DNA from: Bryobacter sp. CoA8 C33
GTDB lineage: Bacteria > Acidobacteriota > Terriglobia > Bryobacterales > Bryobacteraceae
Assembly: GCA_019931185.1 (NCBI GenBank)
Contig: JAINDK010000038.1
Location: forward strand, 126,391 to 165,349
DNA length: 38,959 nt
Reading direction: 5' to 3'
The position numbers were made by a program, and so were the translations under genes. Positions 13,334-34,293 of this stretch are shown here, one piece after another (positions within the stretch are counted from its first letter, which is position 1; each line of letters starts with the position of its first letter). The notes beneath the pieces are model-generated. The model was not told the DNA's origin. It saw only the letters and a list, made by a program, of their open reading frames with translations, and did not search any database.

Positions 13334-13402
13334 CGTGGCATATTCTTTCACGAATTAGCCGGTCCAGGCGGGAAAGTGATAAATTTCTCTTGGGTTCACG
13401 TC

Positions 13403-13792: not shown

Positions 13793-13802
13793 CCCGCCCC
13801 GC

Positions 13803-16251: not shown

Positions 16252-16260
16252 CCCTTCATC

Positions 16261-17676
16261 TTAATCCCGCACCAGTTGATACGGCGCCGGCGTAATCTTC
16301 AGCGCCCCCGCCATCGGCCCGGCATGCCGCGTCTTGACGATCACGTCGGCCCCCGCCTGCCGCCACTCGAGCGCCCCAGCCTCGCCCAGCTTCACGATCG
16401 TCGACCCCGGCGCCGCCATCACCCGCGGCACCCGCAGTTCGTTGCCCGTCGTCGGTTTCAGCAGATACGCATACACCGCGTCCCCCTTGCGCGTAAACCG
16501 CACATCCGCGTCCGCCTCGCGCGCCGCCGCCCGGATCCATGGCTTCGATTCAAACAATCCCTCCCCGTGCACCTTCAGCCATTGCCCCAGCGCCTTCAGC
16601 CGGTCCTTCTGGATCTCGCTGATGCTCCCGTCCGGCCGCGGCCCCACGTTCAACAACAGGTTCCCGTTCTTGCTCACGATGTCCACAAACAACTCCACTA
16701 GCTTGTCGCTCGCCAGCACATGCTCCGGCCCTTCAATCTGGTTGTAGCCAAAGCTGAAGCCCAGCCCCCGGCAACTCTCCCATTTCTTCTCCACGATCCG
16801 GTCATAGCGCGAATACTCCGGCGTCGTGAAATCAAAGTGATCCCGCCCAAACCGGTTGTTTACCAGCCCTTCCTTGTCCCGGTTGTAGAAGTCCGCGAAG
16901 ATCTTCTCCAACTTCCCCACCTTCGGATAGCCGATATCGTTCCACAACACCGCCGGCTGGTAGCGGTCCATCAACTCATACCAGTGCGCATCCGCGTAGT
17001 CCGCATATTGCTGCGTCTGCACCACCGTCTTGCCCACGTCCATCATCGTCCGCACTGGCCGCGTTTCAAACGTCCAGTCAAGCCCCCCTGAATAATACAA
17101 ACCCATCTTCATCCCCGCCTTGCGCACCGCCCCCGTCAGGTCCCCCACCAAGTCCCGCCCAATCACCGGCAGGTCCGCCTTCACCGGGTTCTTTACCTTC
17201 GACGGCCACAACGTAAACCCGTCATGGTGCTTCGTCGTCAGCACCACATACCGCGCCCCCACTTGCTGAAACAGCCCCGCCCATTCCTCCGGGTTCCACT
17301 TCATGCTCTCCTGCGTGAACTTCTCCGCGAACCGGTAATAGTCATAATCCGCCCCATACGTCTTGGCGTGATGCGCATACGCCGAAGACTCCTTCAGCCG
17401 GATCGAATTCAAATACCACTCCGCATACGGGTTCTGGTAAAACCACTTCGAGAAATCAACCTTGCCCAACTCCCCGCTCGGCTGCGCCCACGCCGGCACC
17501 GAATACAGTCCCCAATGGATGAAGATCCCCAGCTTCGCATCCCCAAACCACTTCGGCAGCGGATGCCGCTTCAGTGAATCCCAGCTCGCCTCATACTTCG
17601 ACGGCGGCCCCACTTCCCCAAATTGCGCCATCGCCATGCCCGCCGGCATCGTCGCCAGAAATTGCCTTCTTCTCAT
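16261..17676 (-). CDS. Alpha-L-fucosidase, glycoside hydrolase family 29, exported
   Basis: The preferred start ATG 17676 gives 471 residues (MRRRQFLATMPAGMAMAQFG), a Tat-type signal. The frame runs open to 18150, but the extra part is antisense to the neighbouring cytochrome gene and lacks homology. GH29 enzymes retain configuration and remove alpha-L-fucose from glycans. The barrel shows FIHWGLYSVPAWA (H54 region), TTKHHDGFTLW at 147-157 and the nucleophile D247 in VLWNDIGYP; E287 in TTPEYSRYD is the likely acid/base. NGNLLLNVGPRPDGSI ends the catalytic domain and a beta-sandwich domain follows. It heads the operon with the TPR and FAD genes, 39 bases from the divergent cytochrome gene. This points to glycan use in the periplasm. 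Confidence 0.94.
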   Translation of the reverse strand: MRRRQFLATMPAGMAMAQFGEVGPPSKYEASWDSLKRHPLPKWFGDAKLGIFIHWGLYSVPAWAQPSGELGKVDFSKWFYQNPYAEWYLNSIRLKESSAYAHHAKTYGADYDYYRFAEKFTQESMKWNPEEWAGLFQQVGARYVVLTTKHHDGFTLWPSKVKNPVKADLPVIGRDLVGDLTGAVRKAGMKMGLYYSGGLDWTFETRPVRTMMDVGKTVVQTQQYADYADAHWYELMDRYQPAVLWNDIGYPKVGKLEKIFADFYNRDKEGLVNNRFGRDHFDFTTPEYSRYDRIVEKKWESCRGLGFSFGYNQIEGPEHVLASDKLVELFVDIVSKNGNLLLNVGPRPDGSISEIQKDRLKALGQWLKVHGEGLFESKPWIRAAAREADADVRFTRKGDAVYAYLLKPTTGNELRVPRVMAAPGSTIVKLGEAGALEWRQAGADVIVKTRHAGPMAGALKITPAPYQLVRD

Positions 17677-17715
17677 CCCTGACTGTCTATCACAAATGGT
17701 TATGATTGTCATGGA

Positions 17716-19128
17716 ATGATTCGGAGCGTCTGTCTTTTCCTTGCCGCTCTTCCTCTCCTCGCGGTCCACCCCTGCCAGTCTTGCCACCCCGCGCAAGTCT
17801 CGGCCTTCGCCCGCACCCCCATGGGCAATGCCATCGCTCCCGCCCAGCCCACCGCCCCCGGTTCCTTCGTTCATTCCCCCTCCCAGTCCCGCTTCGAGTC
17901 CTTCACCCGCGACGGCCGCCTCTGGCACCGCATCGAGCGCGGCTCCCTCTCCGCCGAATACCCCATCGACTGGCAAATCGGCTCCGGTGCCCACGCCGCC
18001 GGCTACCTCGTCCGCATCGGCGAGGCCCTCTTTCAATCCCCCGCCGCCCTCTACCGCGACAACCACCTCTGGGCTGCCGCACCCGGCTATGAACGCCACT
18101 CCCGCCTCGACTTCGATCGCCGCGTCACCACCCAATGCCTCGATTGCCACTCAAGCGGCGATGCCGCCAATCCCCAACCCATTTCCTGCGATCAATGCCA
18201 CGGCAATCCCGCCGCCCACCTCGCCCGCCCCTCCCGCGCCAACATCTCCAATCCCTCGCGCCTCGCCCCGGCCGCCCGCGACTCCGTCTGCGAGCGCTGC
18301 CACCTCACCGGCGAAACCCGCATCGGTCCCCTCACCATCGTCTACGACCGCCCCCGCCAGGACCTCCGCGTCGTCAGCCACGTCGAACAACTCGCCCTCA
18401 GCGAATGCGCCCGCCAATCCTCCGGCAAGCTCTGGTGCGGCTCCTGCCACGCCTCCCACGGCCCCGCCATCAACGTCACCGCCACCTGCCGCTCCTGCCA
18501 TTCTTCCCTGTCCCCGGCCCACCCCGTCTCCTCCCAGACCTGCGCCTCCTGCCACATGCCCCGCCGCCCCGCCTCCGACGGCGGCCACAGCGCCTTCACC
18601 GACCATCGCATCCAGTCCCGCCCCACCCCCGCCTCCTCCGCCCCCGCCCAACTCCGCGTCTGGCGCGATGCCGGCTCCCCCTTCGACCGCGAGCGCGCCC
18701 TCGGTCTCGCCTCCATTGAAATCGGCGAACGCGACGGCGCCCCCGAACTCATCCAAAACGGCTACCGCCGCCTCGCCGCCCTCATCGCCCGCCTAGACCG
18801 CGATCCCGAAGTCCTCTCCGCCCTCGGCATGGTTCTCTTCCTCAAAGACCAGAAAGCCGATGCCCGCAAGCTCCTCCGCACCGCCGTCTCCCTTCGCCCG
18901 AACGACCCCTCCCTCCGCGAAAAACTCGCCCTCATCGAAAAATCCCTCGGCGATACCTCCGCCGCCGTCACCCACCTCGAACAGGCCGTTCGCCTCGACC
19001 CCTTCTCCCCCCGCGCCTGGTTCCTTCTCGCCGACTGCCAGCCCAACCAGCGCCGCGCCATCCTCTCCCGCTTCCTCCGCCTCGCCCCCCAAAGCCTCCT
19101 CGCCCGCGAAGCCCTCCTATCCCCCTGA
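17716..19128 (+). CDS. Heptahaem c-type cytochrome with C-terminal TPR
   Basis: A signal peptide (MIRSVCLFLAALPLLAVHP) leads a 470-residue protein with seven CXXCH sites at residues 20, 141, 158, 192, 241, 258 and 276. TPR-like helices fill about 345-465 (LKDQKADARKLLRTAVSLRPND; SAAVTHLEQAVRLDPFSPRAW). A non-haem cysteine, C231 in ALSECARQ, sits ten residues before haem site 5. The order and spacing match the convergent cytochrome at 19117-20658, and IDWQIGSGAHAAGYLV pairs with VKWAIGSGVNGYSFVV there, so the two are paralogues placed tail to tail with a 12-base overlap. A periplasmic electron carrier or redox enzyme of the cytochrome c554/DmsE-like group is likely. The ATG has only a weak GGA before it. 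Confidence 0.9.
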   Translation: MIRSVCLFLAALPLLAVHPCQSCHPAQVSAFARTPMGNAIAPAQPTAPGSFVHSPSQSRFESFTRDGRLWHRIERGSLSAEYPIDWQIGSGAHAAGYLVRIGEALFQSPAALYRDNHLWAAAPGYERHSRLDFDRRVTTQCLDCHSSGDAANPQPISCDQCHGNPAAHLARPSRANISNPSRLAPAARDSVCERCHLTGETRIGPLTIVYDRPRQDLRVVSHVEQLALSECARQSSGKLWCGSCHASHGPAINVTATCRSCHSSLSPAHPVSSQTCASCHMPRRPASDGGHSAFTDHRIQSRPTPASSAPAQLRVWRDAGSPFDRERALGLASIEIGERDGAPELIQNGYRRLAALIARLDRDPEVLSALGMVLFLKDQKADARKLLRTAVSLRPNDPSLREKLALIEKSLGDTSAAVTHLEQAVRLDPFSPRAWFLLADCQPNQRRAILSRFLRLAPQSLLAREALLSP

Positions 19129-20658
19129 TACCTGCTTCAACAACCGCCTCACAAAATCATCTTCCGGAAACAAACCCACATACTTCTCCAGCGTTTCCTT
19201 CGCCTCCCCGTATTGCCGCATTTGAATCAACCGCAACGCCAGCGACTTGTACAGCACCGCGTGAAACGGCGCCACCGCGATTCCTTCCCGCAATACCCTC
19301 ACCGCCCGCTCGTTCTGCCCCGTCCGCGCCAGCGCTTCCCCCAGATCCTCATATGTCGTCGCTACCTTCCAGCCCCGCTCGAGCGCCCGGCTCAGTTGCT
19401 CCACCGCCACCCCATAGTTCTTTTCCCGCAGCGCTCTCCGCCCCAGCGTCGCCAGCACCAGCCCGTCCTCCGGGTTCTCCACGGCCGCCTTCCCCAGCCG
19501 CTCCTCAAACTTCCTCATCCATTGCGGCCCCTTCTCGGCCACCATCCCATAGGCCTGCATTTCAATCAGCGTCCCCCACGGTTTCCCCGTCCGGTTCACT
19601 CCCACTAGTTCCTCACCACTCTCAAGCGCCGCCTTCATTTCCGGCCGTCGCGGAATCCGGTGGTTCGTCAAGGCCGCATGCGCAATCACTCCCACCTCCC
19701 GCTTCGGCATATGACAACTCACACAATCGCTCTGCGCTCCCACGTGCTTCGGCCCCAGCTTGCCCTCATGGCAGCTCAAACACTTTGCCCGGTAATCCGT
19801 CTTCACCTCGTGCGGGTTGTGGCAGCTCTGGCAGTTCATCGTCCCGCTCTTCTGGTAACACTCGCTCAGCCGCATCGATTCGTGATGCTCGAGCAGGTCC
19901 GTATCCTTCTGCCGCGGCAGCCGGAAGATCGCCACCGTATCCGCTAGCGCCTGCCCGGGCCGGTAATCCGCCTCCGTCTTGCCCGGCAGCAAAACCCGCG
20001 CATCCCCTCCCTGATGACAGCGCATGCAGATCTCATCGGCCCGCTCCCGCTCCAGTTTCTTCGGGTTTACGATCGTTCCCTTCGCCCCGCCTGCCGCAAC
20101 ATGCTTCTGCCCCGGCCCATGACAACTCTCACAGCCGATCGCCAACTCCGCAAACGGCGGATCCTCATACTTCCCGCTCGTCTGCGCCACCGTCCGCGGC
20201 CTCCCGCTGTGACAGTGTATGCACCCCGCCGCGATCGGCCGGTTAAACCCATAATCGGCAAACTCATAGCCCGGCGACAAGCCCCATTGCCCCACCCGCG
20301 CATAATACGACAGCGGCGCCTGAAACAAATGGTCCCCCCTCTGCACCACAAAGCTATACCCGTTCACTCCCGATCCGATCGCCCACTTCACCACCTGATC
20401 ATGCGCAAACCCCTCCCCCGCCTCCCGCTGCTTCATCACCCCTTCCTCCACCCGCACGCTGAACTCCCGCCTCAGCTTCTCGGCGCCTACCTTCGTCTCT
20501 CCCCCCACTTTCCCCAAATGTTCCCCCGCACTGCTCATGCTCCGTCCCATCGCCGACCCCTTCCAGTGCTCGCTGATCGCCCGGTGACACGGCGCGCACC
20601 GCCCCGATCCCACATACTCCTCGCCCAACAAACTCGCCCCGATCAATACCCACAACAT
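19117..20658 (-). CDS. Heptahaem c-type cytochrome with C-terminal TPR (last gene of operon)
   Basis: A 513-residue exported protein (MLWVLIGASLLGEEYVGSGR) with CXXCH at 21, 146, 176, 211, 276, 293 and 312. A lone cysteine lies at 267 in RLSECYQKSG. Two to three TPRs occupy about 390-510 (ALREKNYGVAVEQLSRALERG; LARTGQNERAVRVLREGIAVAP; LIQMRQYGEAKETLEKYVGLFP). GCESCHGPGQKH and CVSCHMPKREVG are typical of multihaem cytochromes related to c554/DmsE. It starts four bases after the CRTAC1 gene and is the fifth gene of the operon. It probably transfers electrons in the periplasm to or from the other haem proteins encoded here; TPRs would give a docking surface. Confidence 0.92.
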   Translation of the reverse strand: MLWVLIGASLLGEEYVGSGRCAPCHRAISEHWKGSAMGRSMSSAGEHLGKVGGETKVGAEKLRREFSVRVEEGVMKQREAGEGFAHDQVVKWAIGSGVNGYSFVVQRGDHLFQAPLSYYARVGQWGLSPGYEFADYGFNRPIAAGCIHCHSGRPRTVAQTSGKYEDPPFAELAIGCESCHGPGQKHVAAGGAKGTIVNPKKLERERADEICMRCHQGGDARVLLPGKTEADYRPGQALADTVAIFRLPRQKDTDLLEHHESMRLSECYQKSGTMNCQSCHNPHEVKTDYRAKCLSCHEGKLGPKHVGAQSDCVSCHMPKREVGVIAHAALTNHRIPRRPEMKAALESGEELVGVNRTGKPWGTLIEMQAYGMVAEKGPQWMRKFEERLGKAAVENPEDGLVLATLGRRALREKNYGVAVEQLSRALERGWKVATTYEDLGEALARTGQNERAVRVLREGIAVAPFHAVLYKSLALRLIQMRQYGEAKETLEKYVGLFPEDDFVRRLLKQVSGG

Positions 20659-20662
20659 CGCT

Positions 20663-22411
20663 TCAAGCCTTCTTCTTCCACGGCGTTGCCTTCACAATGC
20701 CCGCGCCCTCTTTGATCTCGATCAGTTGCCCCGCCGCCACCTTCGCAAACCTCTCCACGCCCCCACTCGGCCACCGCACCTCCACATCCACCACCGTCGC
20801 CGCCCCCAGCCCAAAGTGCAGACGGAAGTCGTTCACCGAATAAAAACTCCCCTGGCTCATCACCTCCTGCGCTTCTTTCTTCACCCCCCGGCTCACCGTC
20901 ACCCGCGCCCCGATCGCGCTCCGGTTCGACTTCACTCCCTCCAGCTTCACCTTCAACCACTGGCCCCCACTCGTCACATCGTTGCGCAACAGACTCGGCG
21001 GCTCATGCAGATTCACCACCACCACGTCCATGTCCCCGTCGTTGTCAAAATCGCCAAACGCGCACCCCCGGCTCGAGTGCGCCTCCCCCACCGCCGGCCC
21101 CGCCAAATCAAACAGCTCCTCAAACTTGCCTCCCCCCAAATTCCGGAACACCACCCGCGGCGTCTTGAACGGATAAGCCGGCAGCTTCGCTTCAATCTCC
21201 GGATACACGTTCCCCGTCACAAAAAACAAATCCGGTTGCCCGTCGTTGTCGAGATCCACCATCCCCGCCCCCCAACTCACATACCGCGTCTCCACCCCCA
21301 CCCCGCTCCGCGTCGTCACATCCTCGAAATTCGCCTTCCCATCGTTGCGGTACAACACATTTGAATCATCGGCGAAATGCGTCTTGAACAAATCAAGGTT
21401 CCCGTCCAGGTCGAAGTCCCCCACCCCCACCCCCATCCCCGCCTGCTCCATGCCGTCTTCATTCACTGCCACCCCCCGCTCCAGCCCCACCTCCTCGAAA
21501 GTCCCGTCATGCCGGTTCCGGAACAGAAAGCTCGCCGTCGAATCGCAGGCCACATAGATGTCCGGCCAGCCGTCGTTGTCAAAGTCCGCCGCCACCGCCG
21601 TCATCCCGTAGCTGCCCCGCGCCTTCGCCACCCCCGACTTCACGCTCACATCCTCAAAGGTCCCGTTGCCCCGGTTCCGGTACAACGAATGCACACCCGG
21701 CGTCAGCCCCCGCGGCCCACAGTTCACCGGCACCCCCTTCCAGTTGCAGAACGAGTTCTGCCCCGGCCGCGGCACCTTGTCCGGATCGAAATCCACATAG
21801 TTCGACACAAACAGGTCGAGATGCCCGTCCCGGTCATAATCGACAAACGTAGACCCCGCCCCCCAGCGCCGCTTTGCCTCCCATAGCCCCGCTTCCTTCG
21901 TCACATCGCTGAAGGTCCCGTTCCCGTTGTTCCGGTACAGCACGTTCTGGCCCCAGTACGTCACAAACAGGTCCGTCCAGCCGTCGTTGTTGTAATCCCC
22001 CGCGCACACCCCCGACGCCCAGCCCGTCCGCTCCAGCCCCGCCTCCCGCGTCACGTCCGTAAACGTGCCGTCCCGGTTATTCCGGTACATCCGGTTGCTC
22101 GCCTGAGACCCCTCGAGCGTCGTCCCGTTCAACAAAAAGATGTCTAGCCACCCGTCGTTGTCATAATCGACAAACGCCACCCCACACCCCACCGTCTCCA
22201 GCAGATATTGCTTTGCTTTTTCCCCGCCATACGTGCACGGCTCGAGCAGTCCGGCCTGCTTGGCCACGTCCACTAGCTTCGAGTGAAACGGCAGCCCCGA
22301 CGGCTTACCACGCTGCTGCGGTCGCACCACGCGCGACACCACGCCCTGTCCGCGCGCCGCCCACACCCCGCCCAGCAAACTCAGCAGGCTTCGTCTGGTT
22401 GTTTTACCCAT
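20663..22411 (-). CDS. CRTAC1-family protein: FG-GAP/VCBS repeats with C-terminal ASPIC/UnbV domain
   Basis: A 582-residue exported protein with a Tat-like start (MGKTTRRSLLSLLGG). Seven calcium-type loops of the form DxDxDGxxD are visible: DYDNDGWLD, DYNNDGWTD, DYDRDGHLD, DFDNDGWPD, DFDLDGNLD, DLDNDGQPD and DFDNDGDMD. Between them lie LYRNNGNGTFxDVT-type strands of a beta propeller. The C-terminal ASPIC/UnbV domain is marked by NRSAIGARVTVSRG and VEVRWPSGGVERFAKV. The family is extracellular or periplasmic with no settled biochemical role. The ATG overlaps the end of the DUF1501 gene by eight bases, and the next cytochrome begins four bases after its stop, so it is firmly inside the operon. 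Confidence 0.93.
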   Translation of the reverse strand: MGKTTRRSLLSLLGGVWAARGQGVVSRVVRPQQRGKPSGLPFHSKLVDVAKQAGLLEPCTYGGEKAKQYLLETVGCGVAFVDYDNDGWLDIFLLNGTTLEGSQASNRMYRNNRDGTFTDVTREAGLERTGWASGVCAGDYNNDGWTDLFVTYWGQNVLYRNNGNGTFSDVTKEAGLWEAKRRWGAGSTFVDYDRDGHLDLFVSNYVDFDPDKVPRPGQNSFCNWKGVPVNCGPRGLTPGVHSLYRNRGNGTFEDVSVKSGVAKARGSYGMTAVAADFDNDGWPDIYVACDSTASFLFRNRHDGTFEEVGLERGVAVNEDGMEQAGMGVGVGDFDLDGNLDLFKTHFADDSNVLYRNDGKANFEDVTTRSGVGVETRYVSWGAGMVDLDNDGQPDLFFVTGNVYPEIEAKLPAYPFKTPRVVFRNLGGGKFEELFDLAGPAVGEAHSSRGCAFGDFDNDGDMDVVVVNLHEPPSLLRNDVTSGGQWLKVKLEGVKSNRSAIGARVTVSRGVKKEAQEVMSQGSFYSVNDFRLHFGLGAATVVDVEVRWPSGGVERFAKVAAGQLIEIKEGAGIVKATPWKKKA

Positions 22412-23840
22412 TCCTCAATCGTTTTAGCAGATTCCCCTCACCCCCGACATCCGTCAGCCGGAATTCCCGCCCTTGGAAGAAGTACGTCAGCCGCTTGTGG
22501 TCCAGTCCCAGCAGCCCCAGCAATCCCGCATGCAGGTCATGCATGTCTACTTTGTCTGCTTCCGCCTTCAGTCCGATCGCATCCGTCGTCCCGATCGCCT
22601 GGCCCCCCTTCACGCCCCCGCCCGCCAGCCACACCGTAAATCCATATGGGTTGTGGTCCCGGCCATTGCGGTTCCCACCCCCACCCTCGGCTCCGTCCGT
22701 GAACGGCGTCCGGCCAAAATCCCCGCCCCATAACACCACCGTGCTCTCCAGCATCCCCCGCGACTTCAAATCCGCTAGCAGCCCCGCGATCGGCTTATCC
22801 ACCTTTCGCGCCATGAATTCGTGGTTCTGGTCACACTCGTTGTGCCCGTCCCAGCCCACCTCAGCCCCCTTCTTCCCGCCCGAATAAAGCTGAACAAACC
22901 GCACACCCTTTTCCACCAGCCGCCGCGCCATCAAACACTGCGTGCCAAACTCCGCCGTCATCGGGTCATCGAGCCCATACAGCTTCTTCGTCGCCTCGCT
23001 CTCCCGGTCGAGTTCAGTTACTTCCGGCACCGACATCTGCATCTTGAACGCCAGCTCATAGCTCGCCATCCGCGCCGCCAACTCCGTATCGTCTGCCCGC
23101 GGCGCCCGGTGCGCTTCGTTCAGATCGCGCAACACCGATAGCATCGCCTCCTGTTCCCGGTCGCTGATTCCCTCCGGCCGCTTGATGTTCAAAATCGGCG
23201 GCCCTTCGCTCCGCAGTACCGTCCCCTGATACGCCGCCGGCAGAAATCCCGACCCATACGCCGGCGCTCCCGCCTTGATTCCCCCATCGAGCATCACCAC
23301 ATACGCCGGCAGATTGTCACTCTCATTGCCCAGCCCGTACACCACCCAGGAACCCACGCTCGGCCGCCCCACCCGGCTCCATCCCGTGTTCATCCACGTC
23401 TGCCCCGTCACGTGCGTAAACCCGTCATGATGGCACGACCGGATCACCGCCAGATCGTCCGCGTGCCCCGCCGTGTGCTCAAACAGATCCGATATCTCCA
23501 GCCCCGATTGCCCCCGCTTCTTGAACTTCCGCGGCGAGCCCATCAGCGGCGTCCTCTCCATATTCGAGAACTGAAAGTCCACCTTCCCAAAACTCTTCGG
23601 TATCGCCTGCCCGTGCAGCCGGTTCAACTCCGGCTTCGGGTCGAACGTGTCAATGTGGCTCGGCCCCCCGTGCATGAACAGGAAGATGACGCTCTTTCCC
23701 TTCGCCTCGAAATGCGGGCTCCGCCGCGCATACGGGTTCGCCATCACATTCCCCGCCAGCGCTCCAAATCCCAGCGCGCTGCGCAGCAGAAAATCCCGGC
23801 GAGAGTGCGCCGCCACCGTTTTCGGGCAATCAGTCCACAT
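22404..23840 (-). CDS. DUF1501 protein (Tat-exported, alkaline-phosphatase-superfamily-like)
   Basis: Start ATG 23840 gives MWTDCPKTVAAHSRRDFLLRSALGFGALAGN, a twin-arginine signal (SRRDFLL); ATG 23852 would add four residues. The 478-residue protein follows DUF1501 throughout: KSVIFLFMHGGPSHIDTFDPKP near 50-70, SCHHDGFTHVTGQ, GAEVGWDGHNECDQNHEFM and WGGDFGRTPF. DUF1501 belongs to the sulfatase/phosphatase-like fold; activity is unproven. In Planctomycetes and Acidobacteria it nearly always follows a DUF1549/DUF1553 gene, as here. It overlaps the upstream gene (stop at 23830) by 11 bases and the downstream CRTAC1 gene by eight, so all are probably coupled. Confidence 0.92.
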   Translation of the reverse strand: MWTDCPKTVAAHSRRDFLLRSALGFGALAGNVMANPYARRSPHFEAKGKSVIFLFMHGGPSHIDTFDPKPELNRLHGQAIPKSFGKVDFQFSNMERTPLMGSPRKFKKRGQSGLEISDLFEHTAGHADDLAVIRSCHHDGFTHVTGQTWMNTGWSRVGRPSVGSWVVYGLGNESDNLPAYVVMLDGGIKAGAPAYGSGFLPAAYQGTVLRSEGPPILNIKRPEGISDREQEAMLSVLRDLNEAHRAPRADDTELAARMASYELAFKMQMSVPEVTELDRESEATKKLYGLDDPMTAEFGTQCLMARRLVEKGVRFVQLYSGGKKGAEVGWDGHNECDQNHEFMARKVDKPIAGLLADLKSRGMLESTVVLWGGDFGRTPFTDGAEGGGGNRNGRDHNPYGFTVWLAGGGVKGGQAIGTTDAIGLKAEADKVDMHDLHAGLLGLLGLDHKRLTYFFQGREFRLTDVGGEGNLLKRLRNG

Positions 23841-26184
23841 ATAAAAACTCATTCGTATTCAGCATGACCAGCGCCAGTTGTTCGCGGTTCGCAATGCGCC
23901 CCGCCTTCTCTTTCTCCGCCGCCGTCGGCTGCCGTCCATGCACCCGCCGCCACAGGCTTTCCACGTCCCCCGCCTTGCCCGCCAGCACCTTCGCCTGCTT
24001 CACCATGAAGTCCCCGTTCATCAACGTCAGCGCCTGCGGCGCCACCGTCGTATTCTCCCGCCGCGAACAGCTCTGCGACGTCTCCGGCGCGTCAAACGTC
24101 GTAAACATCGGCAATGGAAACGCCCGCTTCACATACAGATACACGCTCCGCCGCGCCTGCTCACTCTCATCGAGCGACTCCGGCCACTGGTTCCGCGCCC
24201 ACATCACCGTGTATTCCTCCGGGCTCAACCTCGGCACCACCGGCCGTCCTCCCATCTTCAGGTTCAACTCCCCGCTCACCGCCAACACCGCATCCCGCAG
24301 CGTCTCGGCGTCCAGCCTCTGCCGGTTCATCCGCCACAGATAACGGTTGTTCCCGTCGATCTTGGAATTCGCTTCACTCGCCTCACTGCTCAATTGATAC
24401 GTCTCCGACAGCAGTATCTTCCGGTGCAGCTTCTTCAGGCTCCAGCCCGATTCCATGAATTCCGCCGCCAGCCAGTCGAGCAACTCCGGATGCGTCGGCT
24501 CCTCGCCCTGCCGCCCAAAGTCATTCGGCGTCGCTACGATTCCCTTGCCAAAATGCCAGTGCCACACCCGGTTCACCATCACGCGCGCCGTCAGCGGATT
24601 CTCCTCGCTCCCCACCCACAACGCCAGCGCCGACCGCCTCGCCTCCTCCGCTCCAATCTTCTGCCCCCGCGCCAGCACCCCCGGCACCGCCGGCCCTACT
24701 TCCTCGCCCTGGCTCCGCCAGTCCCCCCGGTGCGTCAGATGCACCTTCGGCACCACCGGCGCCGGCCCCAACACCGTGGCCGTCTGCGCCACCGGGTTCG
24801 CCTTCAACGCCGCCCGGCCCAATTCCACCACCAGCTTTTCCCGCTCCTGGCTCTCGGCCTCCGTCAACGGAATGTCCGCTTCCTTCCCTTCGGCGTTCTC
24901 CAGCAGCCCCGCTTGCGTCATCGCCGCCTCCACCCGCGCCGCCGTCTTGCGCTGCTCGGCCGTCCGCTTGTCCACCGCTACGTCATACGCCGCCAACTCC
25001 TCGACCGTAAATCGCTTCCGTACCAAGTCCACCACCCGCTTTCTCGCTTTCTGGTCAATCCTCTGGATCGCCCCCTTTAGCTCCTCCACCCGGATCCAGC
25101 TCGGATACCCCGACTTGAACCCGAATGTTGCAAACCGGCTCACCACCGGGATTTCCTTCTCCTCGCTCGCCGCAAACACCGCCATCATCCCGTGATAATC
25201 CCGCTGCGTCAGCGGATCAAACTTGTGGTTGTGACACCGCGAACACCCCAGCGTCAACCCGAGAAACGCCTCCCCCGTCGTATCCACCGCATCCGTCAGC
25301 CACTCATAGCGCACCTGCCCGCCAAATAAAGCCGCCTCGTGATACACCGGTCCGATCGTATACATACCCGTCGCGATGCTCGCATCCAGCTTCGCCAGCT
25401 TCTCCGGCGCAATCTTGAAGCCCCCATCGAGATCGAGATTCGTCGGAAACAACTCATCCCCGGCGATCTGCTCCTGCACAAACTGCTTGTAGGATTTGTC
25501 CTCGTTGAAGCTCCGGATCACATAATCCCGATACCGCCACGCGTTCGGAAAGTAGATGTCCGTCTCAAACCCCCCCGTATCCGCGTACCGCACCACATCG
25601 AGCCAGTGCCGCCCCCAACGCTCCCCATACCGCGGCGACGCTAGCAACCGGTCCACCTGCCGCGCATACGCATCCGGCCGCCCGTCCTGCTCAAACTCGG
25701 CCAACTCCTGCTCGCTCGGCGGCAGTCCCGTTAGCGAATAACTCACCCGCCTCAACAACTCCCGCTTCGTCGCTTTCCGCACCGGCCTCAGCCCCGCCTG
25801 CTGCCACTTTTCCCGAATAAATCGGTCAATCGCCTCTCCCTCCCCGGCCGGTACCGCTGCGCGCTTTACCGCTTGAAACGACCACCAGTTGCTCTTCGCC
25901 TCAAGTTCCTTGCCCAGGCCCGGCGCCCCGGCCTTCACCCAATTCGCAACCGCCGCAATCTCACTCTCGCTCAGCCCCTTCTTGCCCGGCGGCATCGCCT
26001 TCGTCGTCACCATATGCGTTACTTTTTCGAGCACCGCATCCCCGCTCTTCACATTCCGCAGATCCAGATTCCCCATCTTCGCCGCGCCATGGCACGCCAA
26101 ACAGTGGCGCGACAGGATCTCCCGCGCCTCTTGCCCCAAGCCAAGCATGCCCGCGCACAGGCCCACCATCACAGCCCGAATCAT
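23830..26184 (-). CDS. PSCyt1 + DUF1549 + DUF1553 protein (dihaem 'Planctomycete cytochrome')
   Basis: 784 residues with a signal peptide (MIRAVMVGLCAGMLGLGQ). An N-terminal cytochrome-like domain carries CLACH at about 28-32 and the axial methionine candidate in TKAMPPGKKGLSE. DUF1549 starts near 117 (AIDRFIREKWQQAGL) and contains GERWGRHWLDVVRYADTGGF and a second haem motif LGCSRCHNHKFDPLTQRDYH. DUF1553 fills the C-terminal third (NPLTARVMVNRVWHWHFGKGIVATPNDFG; LDAETLRDAVLAVSGELN; NTTVAPQALTLMNGDFM). The family is exported and paired with DUF1501; its reaction is not established, though the haem domain suggests electron transfer to a partner. It begins 27 bases after the heptahaem cytochrome gene and overlaps DUF1501. 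Confidence 0.93.
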   Translation of the reverse strand: MIRAVMVGLCAGMLGLGQEAREILSRHCLACHGAAKMGNLDLRNVKSGDAVLEKVTHMVTTKAMPPGKKGLSESEIAAVANWVKAGAPGLGKELEAKSNWWSFQAVKRAAVPAGEGEAIDRFIREKWQQAGLRPVRKATKRELLRRVSYSLTGLPPSEQELAEFEQDGRPDAYARQVDRLLASPRYGERWGRHWLDVVRYADTGGFETDIYFPNAWRYRDYVIRSFNEDKSYKQFVQEQIAGDELFPTNLDLDGGFKIAPEKLAKLDASIATGMYTIGPVYHEAALFGGQVRYEWLTDAVDTTGEAFLGLTLGCSRCHNHKFDPLTQRDYHGMMAVFAASEEKEIPVVSRFATFGFKSGYPSWIRVEELKGAIQRIDQKARKRVVDLVRKRFTVEELAAYDVAVDKRTAEQRKTAARVEAAMTQAGLLENAEGKEADIPLTEAESQEREKLVVELGRAALKANPVAQTATVLGPAPVVPKVHLTHRGDWRSQGEEVGPAVPGVLARGQKIGAEEARRSALALWVGSEENPLTARVMVNRVWHWHFGKGIVATPNDFGRQGEEPTHPELLDWLAAEFMESGWSLKKLHRKILLSETYQLSSEASEANSKIDGNNRYLWRMNRQRLDAETLRDAVLAVSGELNLKMGGRPVVPRLSPEEYTVMWARNQWPESLDESEQARRSVYLYVKRAFPLPMFTTFDAPETSQSCSRRENTTVAPQALTLMNGDFMVKQAKVLAGKAGDVESLWRRVHGRQPTAAEKEKAGRIANREQLALVMLNTNEFLYVD

Positions 26185-26211
26185 GAACTGAAATCTATCA
26201 CAGCCCGCCGC

Positions 26212-27543
26212 CTATTTCTTGCGTGGCGACTCGATCTGGTGCGTCCGCGCCTCAAATAACAGTGCACTCATCGTCTTCGGCATGTGGCAATCCACGCACA
26301 CGCCCTTCTTGCTGTGGCTCGCCTCGTGGCACTGCAGGCACATCCCATTGTCCTCGGGCCCAAACTTCAATCCCTTTTCATTCACCCGCCCGCTCTTCGG
26401 ATGCGGATCATGACAGTGCGCGCACGTCGCCTGCCCCTTCTGGTAACACGCGCTCCGCTCAAACGATTCCACAATAAACGTCGTTTCCCGGAACCTTCCG
26501 TCCGCATGGAACGCATTCCGCCCAAACTCCACATACGGCCTCCGCTCATATCGCGGCGGAAATTCCGCCCGCGGCGTTCGTAGCGCCGATTGCGCATGAC
26601 ACTGCGCGCACACCGCCACCGATTCCTCCGCGCTCAGCTTTCGCATCTTAGCCCCCTGCGCATGCGCCTTGCCCGGCCCGTGGCACATCTCGCAGTTGAT
26701 CCCCGCCTCCTTCGACTCCCGCTCCGCCCACTGGCTCGTGTGGCACGGCGCGCAGTTTGATTGATACTCCGTCACTTCCCGGAACCGGTGAAACAGACTC
26801 GGGTCCCCACGGTCATAATAAGGCGGATCAATCATCCGCCAGTAATTCACCCACTCTCCCTTCAGCTTGTTGTATTGCAGCGGCAGAACGTGCAGCTTGC
26901 CGTCCGGCGCCCGTGTTGCGTATGCCTCCTGCCACTTCGATCCAATCCGCGCATCCACCGGGTAGCGCCGCGCCCCAATATCCACATACTCCTTCTTGCC
27001 CTCCGTCACCGGCCGGAACATCTTCGCCATCCCCGTCTGCCGCCACGCTTCATATTCCGCTTTGTGGCAACCCTGGCACGAGGCCGTCCCGGCGTAATCC
27101 CCTGCTTGGGTCAGCGTCTGTTTCGGTGCCGGTCCCAGAATCTTCTCGACCGTTGTTTCGATTCCCGGCCGGATCGCTTCCCATTGCTTAGGGCGGAACA
27201 ATTCGAGGTAACGGCGGCTTAATTCCGCATAATGCCGTGCGCCTTTTTCGTCTCCCCGGTTCTTCAGCACGGCCGCCACGCTGCTGGCTAGCAGCGGATT
27301 CTCCGGATAAATCCCCAGCGACTGCCGCGCATAATAAAGCCCTGTTGCCTGATCGCCTAGCTCAAAGCACGCCATCGCCCCCGCCTCGTACACCGCCGCC
27401 CGGTGCTCCGATTCCGGATACCGCTTCAAGTATTCGCTCACCCGGCTGCGGCGCGTCAGCGCGTCGGGGGCCTGCTGTATGGATTTGAGATCCGAAGTGG
27501 CGTCGAAACTGAAGAAAACAATAGCAAGAAGTACCGATTTCAT
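26212..27543 (-). CDS. Heptahaem c-type cytochrome with N-terminal TPR (first gene of operon)
   Basis: 443 residues with a signal peptide (MKSVLLAIVFFSFDA). TPR-like helices come first, at about 20-120 (SEYLKRYPESEHRAAVYEAGAMACFELGDQATGLYYARQSLGIYPENP). Seven CXXCH sites follow at 156, 264, 284, 312, 374, 402 and 416, with a lone cysteine at 366 (RSACYQKG). The haem domain has the same motif order as the two other heptahaem proteins, but the TPR part is on the other end. GGGGA before the ATG is a good ribosome site. As the first gene of the five-gene operon it lies divergent from the Oar-like receptor with 112 bases between starts. A periplasmic electron-transfer role is likely; the partner is unknown. 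Confidence 0.92.
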   Translation of the reverse strand: MKSVLLAIVFFSFDATSDLKSIQQAPDALTRRSRVSEYLKRYPESEHRAAVYEAGAMACFELGDQATGLYYARQSLGIYPENPLLASSVAAVLKNRGDEKGARHYAELSRRYLELFRPKQWEAIRPGIETTVEKILGPAPKQTLTQAGDYAGTASCQGCHKAEYEAWRQTGMAKMFRPVTEGKKEYVDIGARRYPVDARIGSKWQEAYATRAPDGKLHVLPLQYNKLKGEWVNYWRMIDPPYYDRGDPSLFHRFREVTEYQSNCAPCHTSQWAERESKEAGINCEMCHGPGKAHAQGAKMRKLSAEESVAVCAQCHAQSALRTPRAEFPPRYERRPYVEFGRNAFHADGRFRETTFIVESFERSACYQKGQATCAHCHDPHPKSGRVNEKGLKFGPEDNGMCLQCHEASHSKKGVCVDCHMPKTMSALLFEARTHQIESPRKK

Positions 27544-27596
27544 TTCGATCCCCGAGCAATACTATTTCAGATTTCGCTCTTGAAGTCGACCGAACA

Positions 27597-27625
27597 TTGA
27601 TATATGCTAGCGAGGACTTTGTAAT
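27597..27625 (+). promoter_or_regulatory. Sigma70-type promoter of the Oar-like receptor gene
   Basis: TTGATA at 27597-27602 and TGTAAT at 27620-27625 each match consensus at five of six bases and are separated by exactly 17. Transcription would start near 27632, leaving a leader of about 24 bases with AAGAGG ahead of the ATG at 27656. This is the best promoter-like pair in the window. Confidence 0.6.
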
Positions 27626-27655
27626 CTATTTGTACCTTGAAGAGGTGTCCGTTTC

Positions 27656-30600
27656 ATGATCCGAATTCTCGTCTTCGCCTTTACGCTCTGTCTTACCGGC
27701 GCAACGGCCATGTTCGCGCAGGCTTCCTCCGCTACGATCAACGGAACGTTGAGAGATTCCTCCGGAAGTGTGATCCCGGCTGCTTCCCTCGCGTTGCGCA
27801 ACACGGCCACGGCCGTTGAAACCCGCACGGCGAGCAATGAAAGTGGTTACTACGCCTTTCTGAACATTCTCCCCGGGCAGTACACCCTCGAGGTCACCAA
27901 ACCCGGCTTCCGCACCAACAAGCTCAATCCCTTCGTGCTTGCCGTCAACCAGACCGCCACGATCGACATCGTCATGGAAGTCGGCTCCGTCGACCAGTCG
28001 ATCAACGTCGAAGCCATCGGCGCCGAAGTCCAGGCGTCCACCTCGGAAATCGGCGCGGTCGTTGCCCGCCAACAAGTCGTCGACCTGCCGCTCAACGGAC
28101 GCAACTTTACCCAGCTTCTCTCGCTCACCCCGGGCGTTGCCCCGGTCAGCGTCTCCCAAAACAACGGTTCTGGCTTCGCCCACCCCGGCATCGGCGCCTT
28201 CATCTTCCCGGCGATCAACGGGCAGACCAACCGCTCCAATTTCTGGACCCTCGACGGCATCACCAACCAGGGTCTGATGCTCTCCACCCCGGCCGTCAAT
28301 CCGATCGTGGACGCCATCGCCGAGTTTAAGGTTCAAAGCCACAACGACCAAGCCGAATTCGGCGGCGTGCTCGGTGGCGTGGTCAACGTCGCCACCATGA
28401 GCGGCACCAACCAACTTCATGGCTCAGCCTGGGAATACCTGCGCAACAGTGAATTCGACGCGCGCAACACATTCCTGCCGGAAGTCACTCCCTTCCGTCA
28501 AAACCAGTTCGGCTTTGCCGTTGGCGGACCGGTGCTCATCCCGAAACTCATCAACGGACGCAACAACACCTTCTTCCATGGCAGCTATCAGGGTTGGCGC
28601 TTCCGCCGTGCCAACAACGCGCTCTTCCGTGTTCCCACCGCGGCCAACCTGGGCGGAAATCTGAGCGACGAAAGCCGTCAGATCTTCGACCCCTCCACCA
28701 CGCGAGCCAATCCGGCCGGAGTCGGCTTCATTCGCGACCCTTTCGCGGGCAATATCATTCCCGCCAGCCGCATCAACCCCGGCACCCTCCTATACGCCCG
28801 CACGACCTTCCCGGTCGGCGGCGCACCCATCACCGCCGACCGCAATGCCCTCGACCCCTCCTCCTTCAGGCAGAACCAGGAAGAATATAGCTTCCGTGTC
28901 GACCGCGTCATCGGCCCGAAGGATAACGTCTTCTTCCGCTTCAGCCACTCCATGCTCGATCAGACTGCCTCCGGTGGCCGGCCGATCCTCGCCAGCTTCC
29001 GCGAGTTCAATGCTTTCAACGTCGGCACAAGCTGGGTCCACACCTTCAGTCCTTCCACCGTTTTGCAGGCTCAATTCGGACGTCTCGAAAACACCGACAA
29101 CAGTGGCAATCGCTTCCGCAGCCTGCCTGCCGATTTCGCCCGCAATGTCGGATACAACCCGGTCTTCTGCTGCAACTTCCTCGACAGCCAGACGCTCATG
29201 CCGGCGCTGAACATCGACGGCTGGGTGGGTGGCGCCGAGTCCCTTTCGCTCAACCGTCCCTCTGATGTTTGGCAATATAAGGCCTCCTTGACCAAGATCA
29301 AGGGCAGTCACCAGATCAAAATGGGCGGTGAGTGGAATAACATGGACTTCTTCGGTTCTCCCCGCAACGCCAGTGCTACCTTCCGTCCCCTCCAAACCGC
29401 AAACCCCCAGACTCCTGGCACCACGGGCAGCCAGTTGGCCAGCTTCCTTCTGAACGTGCCCGATGCAGCTTCGTTTCGCAACCGCGCCACGACAGTGCGC
29501 CGCGGCGGACACATGGCCTTCTTCGTGCAGGACCAGTGGAAGGTGAATCAAAATCTGACCATCAACATCGGTCTGCGTTACGACAAAACTTTCATCCCGG
29601 CCTTGGGCCAGGAAGGCAACGACAACATCTTCACCGGCGGCTACGACATGCAGCGCGGTGTCTACATCATCCAAAAGCAGCCCGGCTCTTGCGAAGAATT
29701 GAAGCGCGCCCCCTGCGTGCCCGGCGGCCGTCTCCCGGCGAACGTCGAGGTTTCCCCCAACGCGAAACTCTATCGCAACACCAGCGACAACTGGCAGCCG
29801 CGTATCGGCTTTGCCTACCGTCTGGGCCAGCGTACGGCAATTCGCTCTTCCTTCGGCATCTTCTTTGACAACTACGCGGCAGTGGTCCAGACCGCTCAGA
29901 ACTACTCCGCCCAATGGCCCAGCGTCGGGGAACAGTTACAGGAAAATCTGAATAACCCCACGGCTGCCCAGCCCACCCCAACCTTCAGCGGTCTCAATCC
30001 CTTCCCCTCGGGCGCTCTGCCCCAGTTGACCCCCTTCGAACAGGTTCAATGGTACATGGACCCGAATTTCCGCAATCCTTACTCGATGCAATGGAACTTC
30101 GGCGTGCAGCACCAGATCTCGAACGACACGGTTTTGACCGTCAACTATGTCGGATCCGGTTCGCGCCGGCTCGACATCGGCGGCTTCTACAACGTCGCGA
30201 CCACTCCCGGACCCGGTAACTTCCGCGACCGTGCCCCCTTCCCCTACATCCGGCCCACTTATTATGACCGCAGCTGGGGTCGTGGTAATTACAACTCCCT
30301 GCAAGTATTGCTCGACAAAAAGTTCCGCAGCGGCTTTGCCTACATGATTAACTATACTTACTCGAAATCGATCGACATCGGTTGTTCCGGCTGGTACGGC
30401 GTGGAAGGCTGCTCCATACAAAATCCCTATCTCTTCAATAACGACCGCAGCGTTTCGGGTTTCGACTTGACGCATGTAGCCACAATGAACTTCGTCTATG
30501 ACCTGCCTTTCGGCAAAGGCAAGAGGATGCAGGTCGGCAACGCCTTCGATTATCTTCTTGGCGGTTGGCGCATGAACGGGATCATCCGTCTCAGTTCCGG

Positions 30601-31012
30601 TCAACCCTACAACTTGCAGATCAATGGTGACTTGGCCAATACCGGAAACACGAACTATCTGCGGTTGAATTTCCTCGGTAACCCGAAATTGTCTAACCCG
30701 ACGACCGGCCGCTGGTTCGACACTTCGCTCGTGGCCTCGCCCGCTCCCTTCACCTTCGGTAACTCCGGACGCTTCCGGATGCGCTCGGATGGCTGGGAGA
30801 ACTTCGATCTATCCCTCTTCCGTGAATTCCCGTTGCCTTTCCTGGGAGAAGGACGCCGTTTGGAGTTCCGCGTCGAAGGCTTCAACATGTTCAACCACCC
30901 GGTCTACGCTGCGCCCAATGCCAACCTTTCGAATACTCAGTTGTTCGGCCGGGTGACGGGCACCGCCAACCAGCCTCGCCAATTGCAGTTGGGCGCTAGA
31001 TTCGTCTTTTGA
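27656..31012 (+). CDS. Oar-like TonB-dependent receptor with carboxypeptidase-regulatory domain
   Basis: 1118-residue outer-membrane protein. A signal peptide (MIRILVFAFTLCLTGATAMFAQ) precedes a CarboxypepD_reg domain at about 25-110 (INGTLRDSSGSVIPAASLALRNT; GYYAFLNILPGQYTLEVTKPGF). The plug region contains VVDLPLNGRNFTQLLSLTPGV and FWTLDGITNQG, then EFGGVLGGVVNVATMSGTNQLHGS, all typical of the very large acidobacterial Oar-like family. The barrel ends QLQLGARFVF with the expected terminal aromatic. These receptors are thought to take up large substrates or anchor adhesion and are expanded in Acidobacteria. A strong promoter lies upstream. The TGA overlaps the ATG of the TPR gene (TGATG). 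Codon use shows much less C-bias than the genes to the left. Confidence 0.93.
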   Translation: MIRILVFAFTLCLTGATAMFAQASSATINGTLRDSSGSVIPAASLALRNTATAVETRTASNESGYYAFLNILPGQYTLEVTKPGFRTNKLNPFVLAVNQTATIDIVMEVGSVDQSINVEAIGAEVQASTSEIGAVVARQQVVDLPLNGRNFTQLLSLTPGVAPVSVSQNNGSGFAHPGIGAFIFPAINGQTNRSNFWTLDGITNQGLMLSTPAVNPIVDAIAEFKVQSHNDQAEFGGVLGGVVNVATMSGTNQLHGSAWEYLRNSEFDARNTFLPEVTPFRQNQFGFAVGGPVLIPKLINGRNNTFFHGSYQGWRFRRANNALFRVPTAANLGGNLSDESRQIFDPSTTRANPAGVGFIRDPFAGNIIPASRINPGTLLYARTTFPVGGAPITADRNALDPSSFRQNQEEYSFRVDRVIGPKDNVFFRFSHSMLDQTASGGRPILASFREFNAFNVGTSWVHTFSPSTVLQAQFGRLENTDNSGNRFRSLPADFARNVGYNPVFCCNFLDSQTLMPALNIDGWVGGAESLSLNRPSDVWQYKASLTKIKGSHQIKMGGEWNNMDFFGSPRNASATFRPLQTANPQTPGTTGSQLASFLLNVPDAASFRNRATTVRRGGHMAFFVQDQWKVNQNLTINIGLRYDKTFIPALGQEGNDNIFTGGYDMQRGVYIIQKQPGSCEELKRAPCVPGGRLPANVEVSPNAKLYRNTSDNWQPRIGFAYRLGQRTAIRSSFGIFFDNYAAVVQTAQNYSAQWPSVGEQLQENLNNPTAAQPTPTFSGLNPFPSGALPQLTPFEQVQWYMDPNFRNPYSMQWNFGVQHQISNDTVLTVNYVGSGSRRLDIGGFYNVATTPGPGNFRDRAPFPYIRPTYYDRSWGRGNYNSLQVLLDKKFRSGFAYMINYTYSKSIDIGCSGWYGVEGCSIQNPYLFNNDRSVSGFDLTHVATMNFVYDLPFGKGKRMQVGNAFDYLLGGWRMNGIIRLSSGQPYNLQINGDLANTGNTNYLRLNFLGNPKLSNPTTGRWFDTSLVASPAPFTFGNSGRFRMRSDGWENFDLSLFREFPLPFLGEGRRLEFRVEGFNMFNHPVYAAPNANLSNTQLFGRVTGTANQPRQLQLGARFVF

Positions 31013-32952
31013 TGAAACTGGCGGTACTGCTACTGGTTTTAGGCCAGACCCCATTTGAGTTACGCGAACAGGCGCGGCGGCTGATTCTCGAGGAGAGATT
31101 CTCAGCCGCCGCGCCTCTTCTTGAGCAGGCTCTTGCCGCTGAACCCAAGGAACTCGGCCACTACTTCGCTCTCGGTTTCGTCTACACCGAGATGGGGCAA
31201 CCATCGAAGGCCATCACGATCCTCGAGCGCGCCCTCGCGCTCAACGCTCAATCAGAACCCGTGCAAACCGGCTTGGGCCGGGCCTACGCACTCGCCGGCC
31301 GCTTCCCCGAAGCCGCCGCCGCTTACAAGGAATCCCTTCGCCTCAAGCCCGCCCAGCAGGAGACCCTACTCGCTCTCGGCCGAACCCTGGTGGCCGCCAA
31401 GGATTACGAAAGCGGCCTCGCCGTTCTGCGGCAATACCGGGGCCCCGAGTCCTTCGAGCCCGCTTATCTAAAGGGCTTGGCCTTGCGCGCGCTCGACCGT
31501 CACGCCGAAGCCGAGGTGGAATTGCGCCGGGCCGTCACCGCCGGTCCCAAGCACGCCGACGCTCATTACCAGTTGGGCTTCGTCCTCCTCAAGCAGGCCA
31601 AGGCTGTCGAGGCACGGGCCATGCTCGAGCGTTCCCGCGACCTGAATCCCTTGCCGGAAACCCGTTTCCAATTAGCCCAGGCATACCGGCAGTTGGGTGA
31701 GACGGAAATGGCATCCGCCGAACTGCGCGCCGTACAACAAAGCCGCCAGCAGGCCGCCGACGCCGCTGTCGGCCTGACCCAATACAAGATGGCTATCGAG
31801 CGGCTTAAGCAGGGAGACCAAGTAGGCGCCGAGACTCACTTCAAGGCCGCCGGAGATTTGCCCGAGGCCAAGATCGACTACGGCGTGATGCTCGGCCAGT
31901 TGAACCGCTTCGCCGAGGCCGAACAGCAGTTCCGCCGCGCCACCGAACTCGATCCCAAATCCGGTTGGGCCTGGCTCAATCTTGGCCTCATGCGCGCCAG
32001 CCAAGCCCGCTTTCGCGACGCCCAGCGCGATCTGGCCGAGGCCAATCGCCTGATGCCGGCGCAGGCTCGCGTTCTCACTGCTCTCGCCATGGTCTCGGGC
32101 CGGCTCAACCAGTGGAAAGAAGCGGCGGCCCTCTTTGCCCGCGTCGTCGAAATCGAGCCAGGCTCCGCGGATGCGCACCTCAATCTCGGCATCGCCCGCG
32201 CCGACCAGTATGACCTCGATGGGGCTCGTAGCGCTTTCGAAAAAGCCGTGGCGCTCGCCCCGGCCAGCCCCCTGGCCCGCTACAACCTCGGGCGGGTGCT
32301 CTTTGACTTGAAGCTGTTCGCCGCCGCCCGGACGGAACTCGATTCAGCCGTGCGGGCCGACGCGAAGCTGTCTCATGCCTGGTATCTGCTCGCGGCGGCC
32401 CACCGCAATCTCGAGCAGCCCGAATTGGGCCTCGCCGTTGTCGATAACTTACTGACCCGCGAGCCAGCCCACCAGGAAGGCCTCTTCTTGAAAGGCCAGA
32501 TATGCGTTCAGCTCGGCCGCAAGTCTGACGCCATTACCGCCTGGGAAAAGCTCTTGGCCCTAAGGCCAGACCACCATGAAGCGCTCTATGCCCTCTCGCG
32601 GCAATTGCAGAGCGTGGATGCCAAGCGTGCCGGTGAATACCGGGCCCGGCTGGCGGCGCTGACGGCGTCGCGGCAGGTGGCCGAGCAGGCGGAATCTCTC
32701 GGTAACTTCGGCCTGAGCGCGGCGGCCGTCAATGATTGGCCGCGGGCCATCGATCGGCTGGAAGAGGCCATTCAGTTGTGTGGCGATTGCCGGGCCGATG
32801 GCGACCTAGCCAAGAATCTCGGCCTCGTGCTGGCCAAAAGTGGCGACATGCAGCGCGCCGAACTGGAACTGCGCAAGGCCCGCGCAAAAAAGCCCGGCGA
32901 TATTGAAATCGTCCGGGCTCTCGAAATGATTCGTCTGCGGCAGCGAAACTAG
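31012..32952 (+). CDS. Large periplasmic TPR protein coupled to the Oar-like receptor
   Basis: ATG 31012 shares its A with the TGA of the receptor gene. The 646-residue product has a short signal ([15 protein letters not shown]) and is built almost wholly of 34-residue TPRs, at least a dozen, for example [31 protein letters not shown] near 45-75 and [30 protein letters not shown] near 385-415. A cysteine pair (LCGDC) lies near residue 588. TPR arrays bind peptides or other proteins; one coupled to a receptor may help assemble or load it, which is inference. The stop TAG and that of the convergent DUF1552 gene share the palindrome CTAG at 32949-32952. Confidence 0.88.
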
Positions 32953-34289: not shown

Positions 34290-34293
34290 CGTG

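Follow-up and report, generated by a model that had tools for sequence, protein, structure and literature searches.

A conserved acidobacterial gene unit of multihaem cytochromes, a DUF1549/DUF1553-DUF1501 pair and a TonB-dependent-receptor-like barrel, possibly serving the use of an imported organic compound

Genes with PSCyt2/PSD1 (DUF1549/DUF1553) domains are found paired with a DUF1501 gene in planctomycetes, Verrucomicrobia, and other bacteria. In Rhodopirellula baltica each of the two domains occurs 41 times, according to the available part of the report (PMC2754498). For Verrucomicrobia, the accessible portion of another study describes sulfatase genes near PSCyt genes and suggests a role in carbohydrate metabolism, although the functions are called unknown (PMC5615132). 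Such a pair lies in a stretch of 38,959 nucleotides from Bryobacter sp. CoA8 C33 (Acidobacteriota; Bryobacteraceae), positions 126,391 to 165,349 of contig JAINDK010000038.1 (assembly GCA_019931185.1). This stretch, here called the window, belongs to contig C15 of a draft genome of 5.05 Mb (G000). The pair has the same domains and the same order as the other pairs; what differs is that the gene of a heptahaem cytochrome (cytA) stands before it, and those of a CRTAC1-like protein (CRTAC) and of a second heptahaem cytochrome (cytB) stand after it. An original prediction, made from the letters of the window, took these five genes for an operon encoding a periplasmic oxidation or electron-export complex that acts on a large substrate, and named it as a candidate for an undescribed system. 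The content, order, conservation, and haem motifs of the genes show that the unit exists, is conserved, and extends beyond five genes. Every part belongs to a known family; as for the combination, no description of it was found in the open-licence PMC literature at the level of titles and the beginnings of abstracts. Overall, the assembly resembles a redox system of an undescribed kind, which may assist the organism in using an imported organic compound.

Other described systems resemble parts of the unit. CytA and cytB are alike by sequence to OcwA, NrfA, cytochrome c554, and MccA; however, OcwA has nine haem motifs, whereas cytA, cytB, and a third cytochrome, cytC, have seven; these three also have TPR regions, and a Met replaces the first distal His. 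In Mtr-type and verrucomicrobial porin-cytochrome conduits an outer-membrane barrel stands beside exported multihaem cytochromes, as it does here, the likeness being one of description in the part of the source at hand (PMC5615132). In place of an MtrB-type porin and a decahaem MtrA, however, the window has a barrel of family PF25183 and seven-motif cytochromes, and the DUF pair and CRTAC are present as well. SusCD-type polysaccharide utilization loci share with the window the class of TonB-dependent receptors and a fucosidase-family neighbour, but here the partner of the receptor is a TPR protein instead of a SusD-type one, and in nine of the 11 five-gene loci there are no glycoside hydrolases within 10 kb, as far as the contigs reach.

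The five co-directional frames are present on the minus strand where they had been placed: cytA at 26212..27543, PSD (the DUF1549/DUF1553 gene) at 23830..26184, D1501 at 22404..23840, CRTAC at 20663..22411, and cytB at 19117..20658. The gaps of 27, -11, -8, and 4 bases are borne out, provided that D1501 is read from its fifth codon, where its three closest relatives (L067, L068, and L070) have their first start; with the first ATG of this frame (23852) the second gap is -23. The count of 16 CXXCH motifs is likewise correct, with seven in cytA, two in PSD, and seven in cytB. Export signals can be read by eye on all five proteins, Sec-like on cytA, cytB, and PSD and twin-Arg on D1501 and CRTAC. 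CRTAC consists of FG-GAP repeats with seven calcium loops, Dx(D/N)xDG, also readable by eye, and a UnbV_ASPIC domain; its Pfam matches (FG-GAP_3 and UnbV_ASPIC) place it in the CRTAC1/ASPIC family, and it is related to cartilage acidic protein 1 (PDB 9etn, 1.6e-16). The TPR regions claimed for both cytochromes fared unequally: the C-terminal one of cytB is found by Pfam, whereas at the TPR-like N-terminus of cytA Pfam finds none, and matches to TPR chains in the PDB come from the family profile only.

Two statements of the original prediction fell short. The number of cytochromes was undercounted, since a third heptahaem-TPR cytochrome gene, cytC, lies at 17716..19128 on the plus strand, convergent with cytB and overlapping it by 12 bases. 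The boundary was also drawn too narrowly, as the unit is flanked by cytC at one side and at the other by two plus-strand genes divergent from cytA (27656-32952). The first of these, TBDR (27656..31012), encodes an outer-membrane beta-barrel of the OMP_b-brl_4 class (PF25183) with a CarboxypepD_reg domain, which is TonB-dependent-receptor-like, and the second (31009..32952) encodes a TPR-repeat protein according to Pfam. The divergent starts of cytA and TBDR are separated by 112 bases (27544..27655), which may form a shared control region. A sigma-70 scan of 17000-28000 gave two sites against 2.1 in shuffled sequences, that is, no excess.

Absence of the gene order from relatives had been named beforehand as an outcome that would speak against an operon. 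Instead, the full order cytA-PSD-D1501-CRTAC-cytB is present in nine genomes of two genera (g1 and g8), and therefore a linked unit is supported. Genes in the relatives were labelled by their phmmer scores against the proteins of the window, at thresholds of our own choice, and the best few candidates in each genome were scored (five for cytA and six for D1501), so that the totals of 44 and 29 genomes given below may be low. Matches to cytA occur in 41 of 200 genomes of the order (1e-30), and its profile matches at least 44 of 237 genomes of the family (1e-130) at 46 loci, all of which were read. The five-gene order is contiguous in seven genomes (G000, G018, G187, G189, G089, G034, and G022), complete over a contig break in two (G070, in L069 and L208; G184, in L072 and L209), and cut off but consistent in two more (G153 and G139). 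Identity to the window across the seven contiguous loci is 53-77% for cytA, 60-84% for cytB, 68-85% for PSD, and 83-93% for D1501. A scan of contigs with cytA gave seven loci, three at 77-78% identity in named Acidobacteria and four at 22-41% in other groups.

The remaining cytA loci show simpler or rearranged forms: cytA-CRTAC-cytB in four genomes (G094, G105, G058, and G639), cytA-cytB in five (G124, G133, G057, G617, and G074), CRTAC-cytA-cytB in three (G618, G600, and G601), cytB-cytA-CRTAC at six loci (twice in G613, and in G123, G172, G630, and G121), cytA-CRTAC at a contig end in two (G159 and G076), and CRTAC-cytA in one (G083). In G144 CRTAC-cytA is followed farther off by a PSD-D1501 pair, a second locus of G159 has cytA with an opposed cytB, and at 12 loci cytA has no CRTAC, cytB, or pair within reach. 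The cytB profile matches nine of 396 genomes of the phylum at 1e-80, the window's own included. Five of these matches, all from another family of the same class (L109-L113), were read, and the five-gene order is found in none; the receptor adjoins the cytB relative, with no DUF pair, in L109-L112, and a CRTAC relative does so in L109-L111 and L113. Since cytochrome loci without the DUF pair outnumber those with it, and the orthologous pair also occurs alone, the five genes are unequally bound. The older core of the unit would consist of the cytochrome, receptor, and CRTAC genes, the DUF pair having been added in one branch.

The flanking genes are conserved too. In the nearest clade, comprising 19 loci whose cytA scores at least 390 bits against the window, 17 loci have enough left flank, and the receptor and TPR genes are divergent from cytA in 14 of them (the G139 receptor being split over two frames). 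Of 14 testable loci, all but that of G094 have cytC next to cytB and convergent with it (13 loci), and partial cytC frames stand at contig ends in G070 and G105.

The best explanation appears to be an eight-gene exported redox and uptake unit acting on an organic oligomer, perhaps a glycan, to which we give a probability of about 0.38. It is preferred since it best joins the receptor, the hydrolase-like protein, the cytochromes, and the neighbours. The receptor and its TPR partner would import the oligomer into the periplasm, where the dihaem PSD and the hydrolase-like D1501 would act on it as a pair. Electrons would pass between this pair and cytA, cytB, and cytC, more probably from the substrate to the respiratory chain than in the reverse direction, and the calcium propeller of CRTAC may bind or scaffold. 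A periplasmic redox function is likely, because the haem content and the relation to the c554, NrfA, and OcwA cytochromes fit it; this part of the original prediction stands, whereas a complex, an oxidation, and a large substrate we infer. More specifically, the unit could be a new type of redox-driven nutrient use, in which a TonB-dependent receptor feeds a dihaem DUF1549/1553 protein and a DUF1501 protein while three OcwA-like TPR cytochromes remove the electrons; this proposal is a tentative one.

All haem motifs of cytA, cytB, and cytC, seven in each, are of the CXXCH type. An eighth, C-terminal motif is kept in 15 of 20 aligned cytA rows, four being without it and one cut by a contig end; judging from this alignment, the branch of the window has lost it. 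The closest solved relative of cytA is PDB 6i5b (1.9e-9 with the single sequence and 9.2e-15 as a profile), and further matches are to MccA (1.9e-6) and, at 0.0008-0.01, to octahaem nitrite reductases. CytB matches 6r2q (1.3e-9), which we take to be MtrA of an Mtr complex, as well as 6i5b and c554. The relationship to OcwA, NrfA, and c554 is one of similarity across the haem domain, with the matches helped by the haem motifs, and there is no characterised protein among the aligned cytochrome relatives. Where c554 and OcwA have their first distal His, there is an invariant Met: M172 in cytA (20 rows), M37 in cytB (14), and M36 in cytC (10), the last placed by the shared motif, not by alignment to a solved chain. 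His/Met ligation raises the potential of a haem. Therefore, if this Met is a ligand, the first haem would have a higher potential, which would suit oxidation. CytB also has a His-His motif at residues 258-259, with H258 in 14 of 14 rows and H259 in 93%; the available text on OcwA describes His-His motifs at both of its open-site haems (PMC6703420), a likeness by motif alone.

These resemblances also suit the main alternative, extracellular electron transfer, in which the cytochromes would carry respiratory electrons out to Fe(III), humics, or similar acceptors and the barrel would anchor or conduct. PDB 6i5b is OcwA, which is a cell-surface terminal reductase according to the part of its description at hand (PMC6703420), the match of cytB to 6r2q points the same way, and a porin-multihaem cluster has been proposed in Verrucomicrobia in the consulted part of that study (PMC5615132). 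Extracellular respiration stays a rival, the more so since Paludibaculum fermentans, which belongs to the same order, reduces Fe(III), an ability that its authors link to multihaem cytochrome genes (PMC8407742). However, the barrel belongs to the receptor class OMP_b-brl_4, the conserved Met would raise the potential of the first haem if it is a ligand, and the DUF pair, CRTAC, and the GH29 neighbours described below have no evident place in such a scheme. Extracellular electron transfer is considered possible, though somewhat doubtful.

PSD matches PSD1/DUF1553 (1e-95), PSCyt2/DUF1549 (9e-78), and a cytochrome CBB3 domain at its N-terminus, and it scores above the cut-offs of PF07583 and PF07587 (261 and 320 bits); D1501 is above that of PF07394 (489 bits; DUF1501 1e-146). 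The haem motif within DUF1549 is kept in 98% of 57 PSD rows and the N-terminal one in 82-86%, and covalent haem is predicted at both. Besides H320, which adjoins the motif, no other His or Met reaches 80% in these rows; with so few conserved candidates, PSD may have an open-site haem. In D1501, H147, D335, H337, D352, D361, and H400 are invariant in 54 of 54 rows, as are R18 and R19 of the twin-Arg start, and D71 and D439 are kept in 98%. The predicted model of D1501 is weak (pLDDT 56) and its best Foldseek match has an E of 0.18, with several low-ranking matches to the alkaline phosphatase superfamily; against the PDB no match at E 0.001 or better was found for the D1501 or PSD models (pLDDT 56 and 62; 12-row alignments).

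The pairing had been called known, in agreement with its occurrence on five plasmids and 43 times in the window's own genome. This genome has 46 PSCyt2/DUF1549 matches, corresponding to 45 PSD genes when two adjacent matches on contig C8 are counted as one, and 46 DUF1501 matches, and a DUF1501 gene comes directly after 43 of the 45 PSD genes. Therefore, the pair is ordinary in this genome, but its cytochrome company is not; among 39 stretches around other pairs of the genome, a frame with at least four CXXCH motifs occurs in L160 only. The density of some 45 DUF1549/1553 genes and 46 DUF1501 matches in 5 Mb is comparable to that in the consulted part of the Rhodopirellula baltica report. This abundance, the many cytochrome loci without the pair, and the restriction of the five-gene form to g1 and g8 would fit a common pair inserted by chance into an unrelated cytochrome operon, with no joint function.

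Against such an insertion stand the overlapping frames and the high identity of D1501 across the aligned five-gene loci, as well as the occurrence of its orthologues. D1501 orthologues (at least 75% identity) are present in at least 29 of the 237 family genomes, one being a partial match, and 21 of the 29 are among the 44 genomes with cytA, where 5.4 are expected (6e-12; hypergeometric, by genome, ignoring the tree); by genus the co-occurrence is 7 of 10, with 2.6 expected (0.0025). In ten of the 21 genomes the pair is in the operon, and in the other 11 it stands alone elsewhere with no cytochromes in the stretch read, while G139 has the start of the operon and DUF1501 is absent from its listed matches. 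Co-occurrence without linkage argues for a shared function of the pair and the cytochromes, and a chance insertion is thus unlikely.

The acquisition of a metal, haem, or cofactor, in which the receptor would import a chelate and the cytochromes would reduce it to release the cargo, is still less probable. Import of chelates is the classic task of TonB-dependent receptors, and the linkage of receptor and cytochromes in 14 of 17 testable loci would suit it; however, 14 haems on top of a dihaem protein and a DUF1501 protein seem costly for this task, and no siderophore or metal genes were seen in a partial scan of the neighbours. Reduction or detoxification of nitrite, hydroxylamine, or oxyanions by cytA or cytB is very unlikely, since, despite the likeness to NrfA, MccA, and octahaem nitrite reductases and the reduction of nitrite and hydroxylamine by OcwA, the latter's nitrite activity is slow in the accessible part of the report (PMC6703420), all motifs are CXXCH and none is the CXXCK of most NrfA, and the receptor and the DUF pair are left unexplained.

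Hints at the substrate of the proposed oligomer-using unit come from its neighbours. An alpha-L-fucosidase-family (PF01120) gene, presumably of the GH29 class and with a twin-Arg start by eye, lies at 16261..17676 on the minus strand, with 39 bases between it and the divergent cytC start, and is one of two PF01120 genes in the genome. By phmmer, 10 of the 46 cytA loci have PF01120 genes within 10 kb, confirmed by Pfam in L119, L121, and L124, and such genes are near cytA in seven of 33 chosen genomes against 0.52 expected. In L121, L124, L180, and L184 (also L119 and L177), from several genera, the cytochrome genes are preceded on their own strand by two PF01120 genes that are adjacent or near to each other.

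DUF1501 relatives on five plasmids from three phyla are each near a DUF1553 or PSD1 gene; two are amid glycoside hydrolase genes, one is beside an L-fucose permease gene, and one is near genes of a SusD-type protein and a TonB-dependent receptor. Since plasmids of alga degraders are rich in carbohydrate genes, these neighbourhoods are no controlled test. One of the two plasmids with glycoside hydrolase genes, from Saccharobesus litoralis (L129), has genes for cytochrome c, cytochrome b/b6, a LamG protein, and a TonB-dependent receptor behind its DUF1549/1553-DUF1501 pair (12529-21490), in a setting of GH88 and pectate lyase genes; this is possibly a simpler wiring of the same pair. Sulfatase genes adjoin a lone pair in L201 and L204.

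Several observations weigh against an oligomer-using unit, besides the neglect of the tree in the co-occurrence statistics. A GH29 neighbour is found in only two of the 11 five-gene loci, the pair on a Singulisphaera plasmid has no carbohydrate genes around it, and around both the five-gene loci and the lone pairs most of the neighbours scanned have no relation to carbohydrates. The receptor is not beside cytA in G089, G153, and G070. Orthologous pairs also occur in eight genomes without a cytA match, and in seven of the eight (all but G148 were read) they stand apart from the cytochromes of the unit; this argues that the pair does not need cytA. Moreover, OMP_b-brl_4 genes number at least 65 in the genome (of 115 first-look candidates, 65 were scored), and the DUF pairs of the genome are not enriched near them: 5 of 43 are within 3 kb, 7 within 5 kb, and 8 within 10 kb, where 17%, 22%, and 35% are expected from density.

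Beyond the TPR gene, the window carries another planctomycete-type pair, a DUF1552 gene and a PSCyt1/PSD2-5/PSCyt3 gene with a LamG domain (32949-37920). Relatives of both are within 10.5 kb of cytA in six of the 46 loci (G000, G613 twice, G123, G635, and G648). In L076 a PQQ-type dehydrogenase gene with two cytochrome c domains (15744-18059) adjoins cytC on the same strand.

The conserved operon and the unlinked co-occurrence give a DUF1549/1553-DUF1501 pair a concrete set of partners, namely cytochromes and an importer. If the proposed unit is true, these would be the first electron partners for a pair of which single planctomycete and acidobacterial genomes have dozens of copies. Should the pair prove to be a redox enzyme for organic polymers, a part of acidobacterial and planctomycete carbon turnover would have been missed by annotation.

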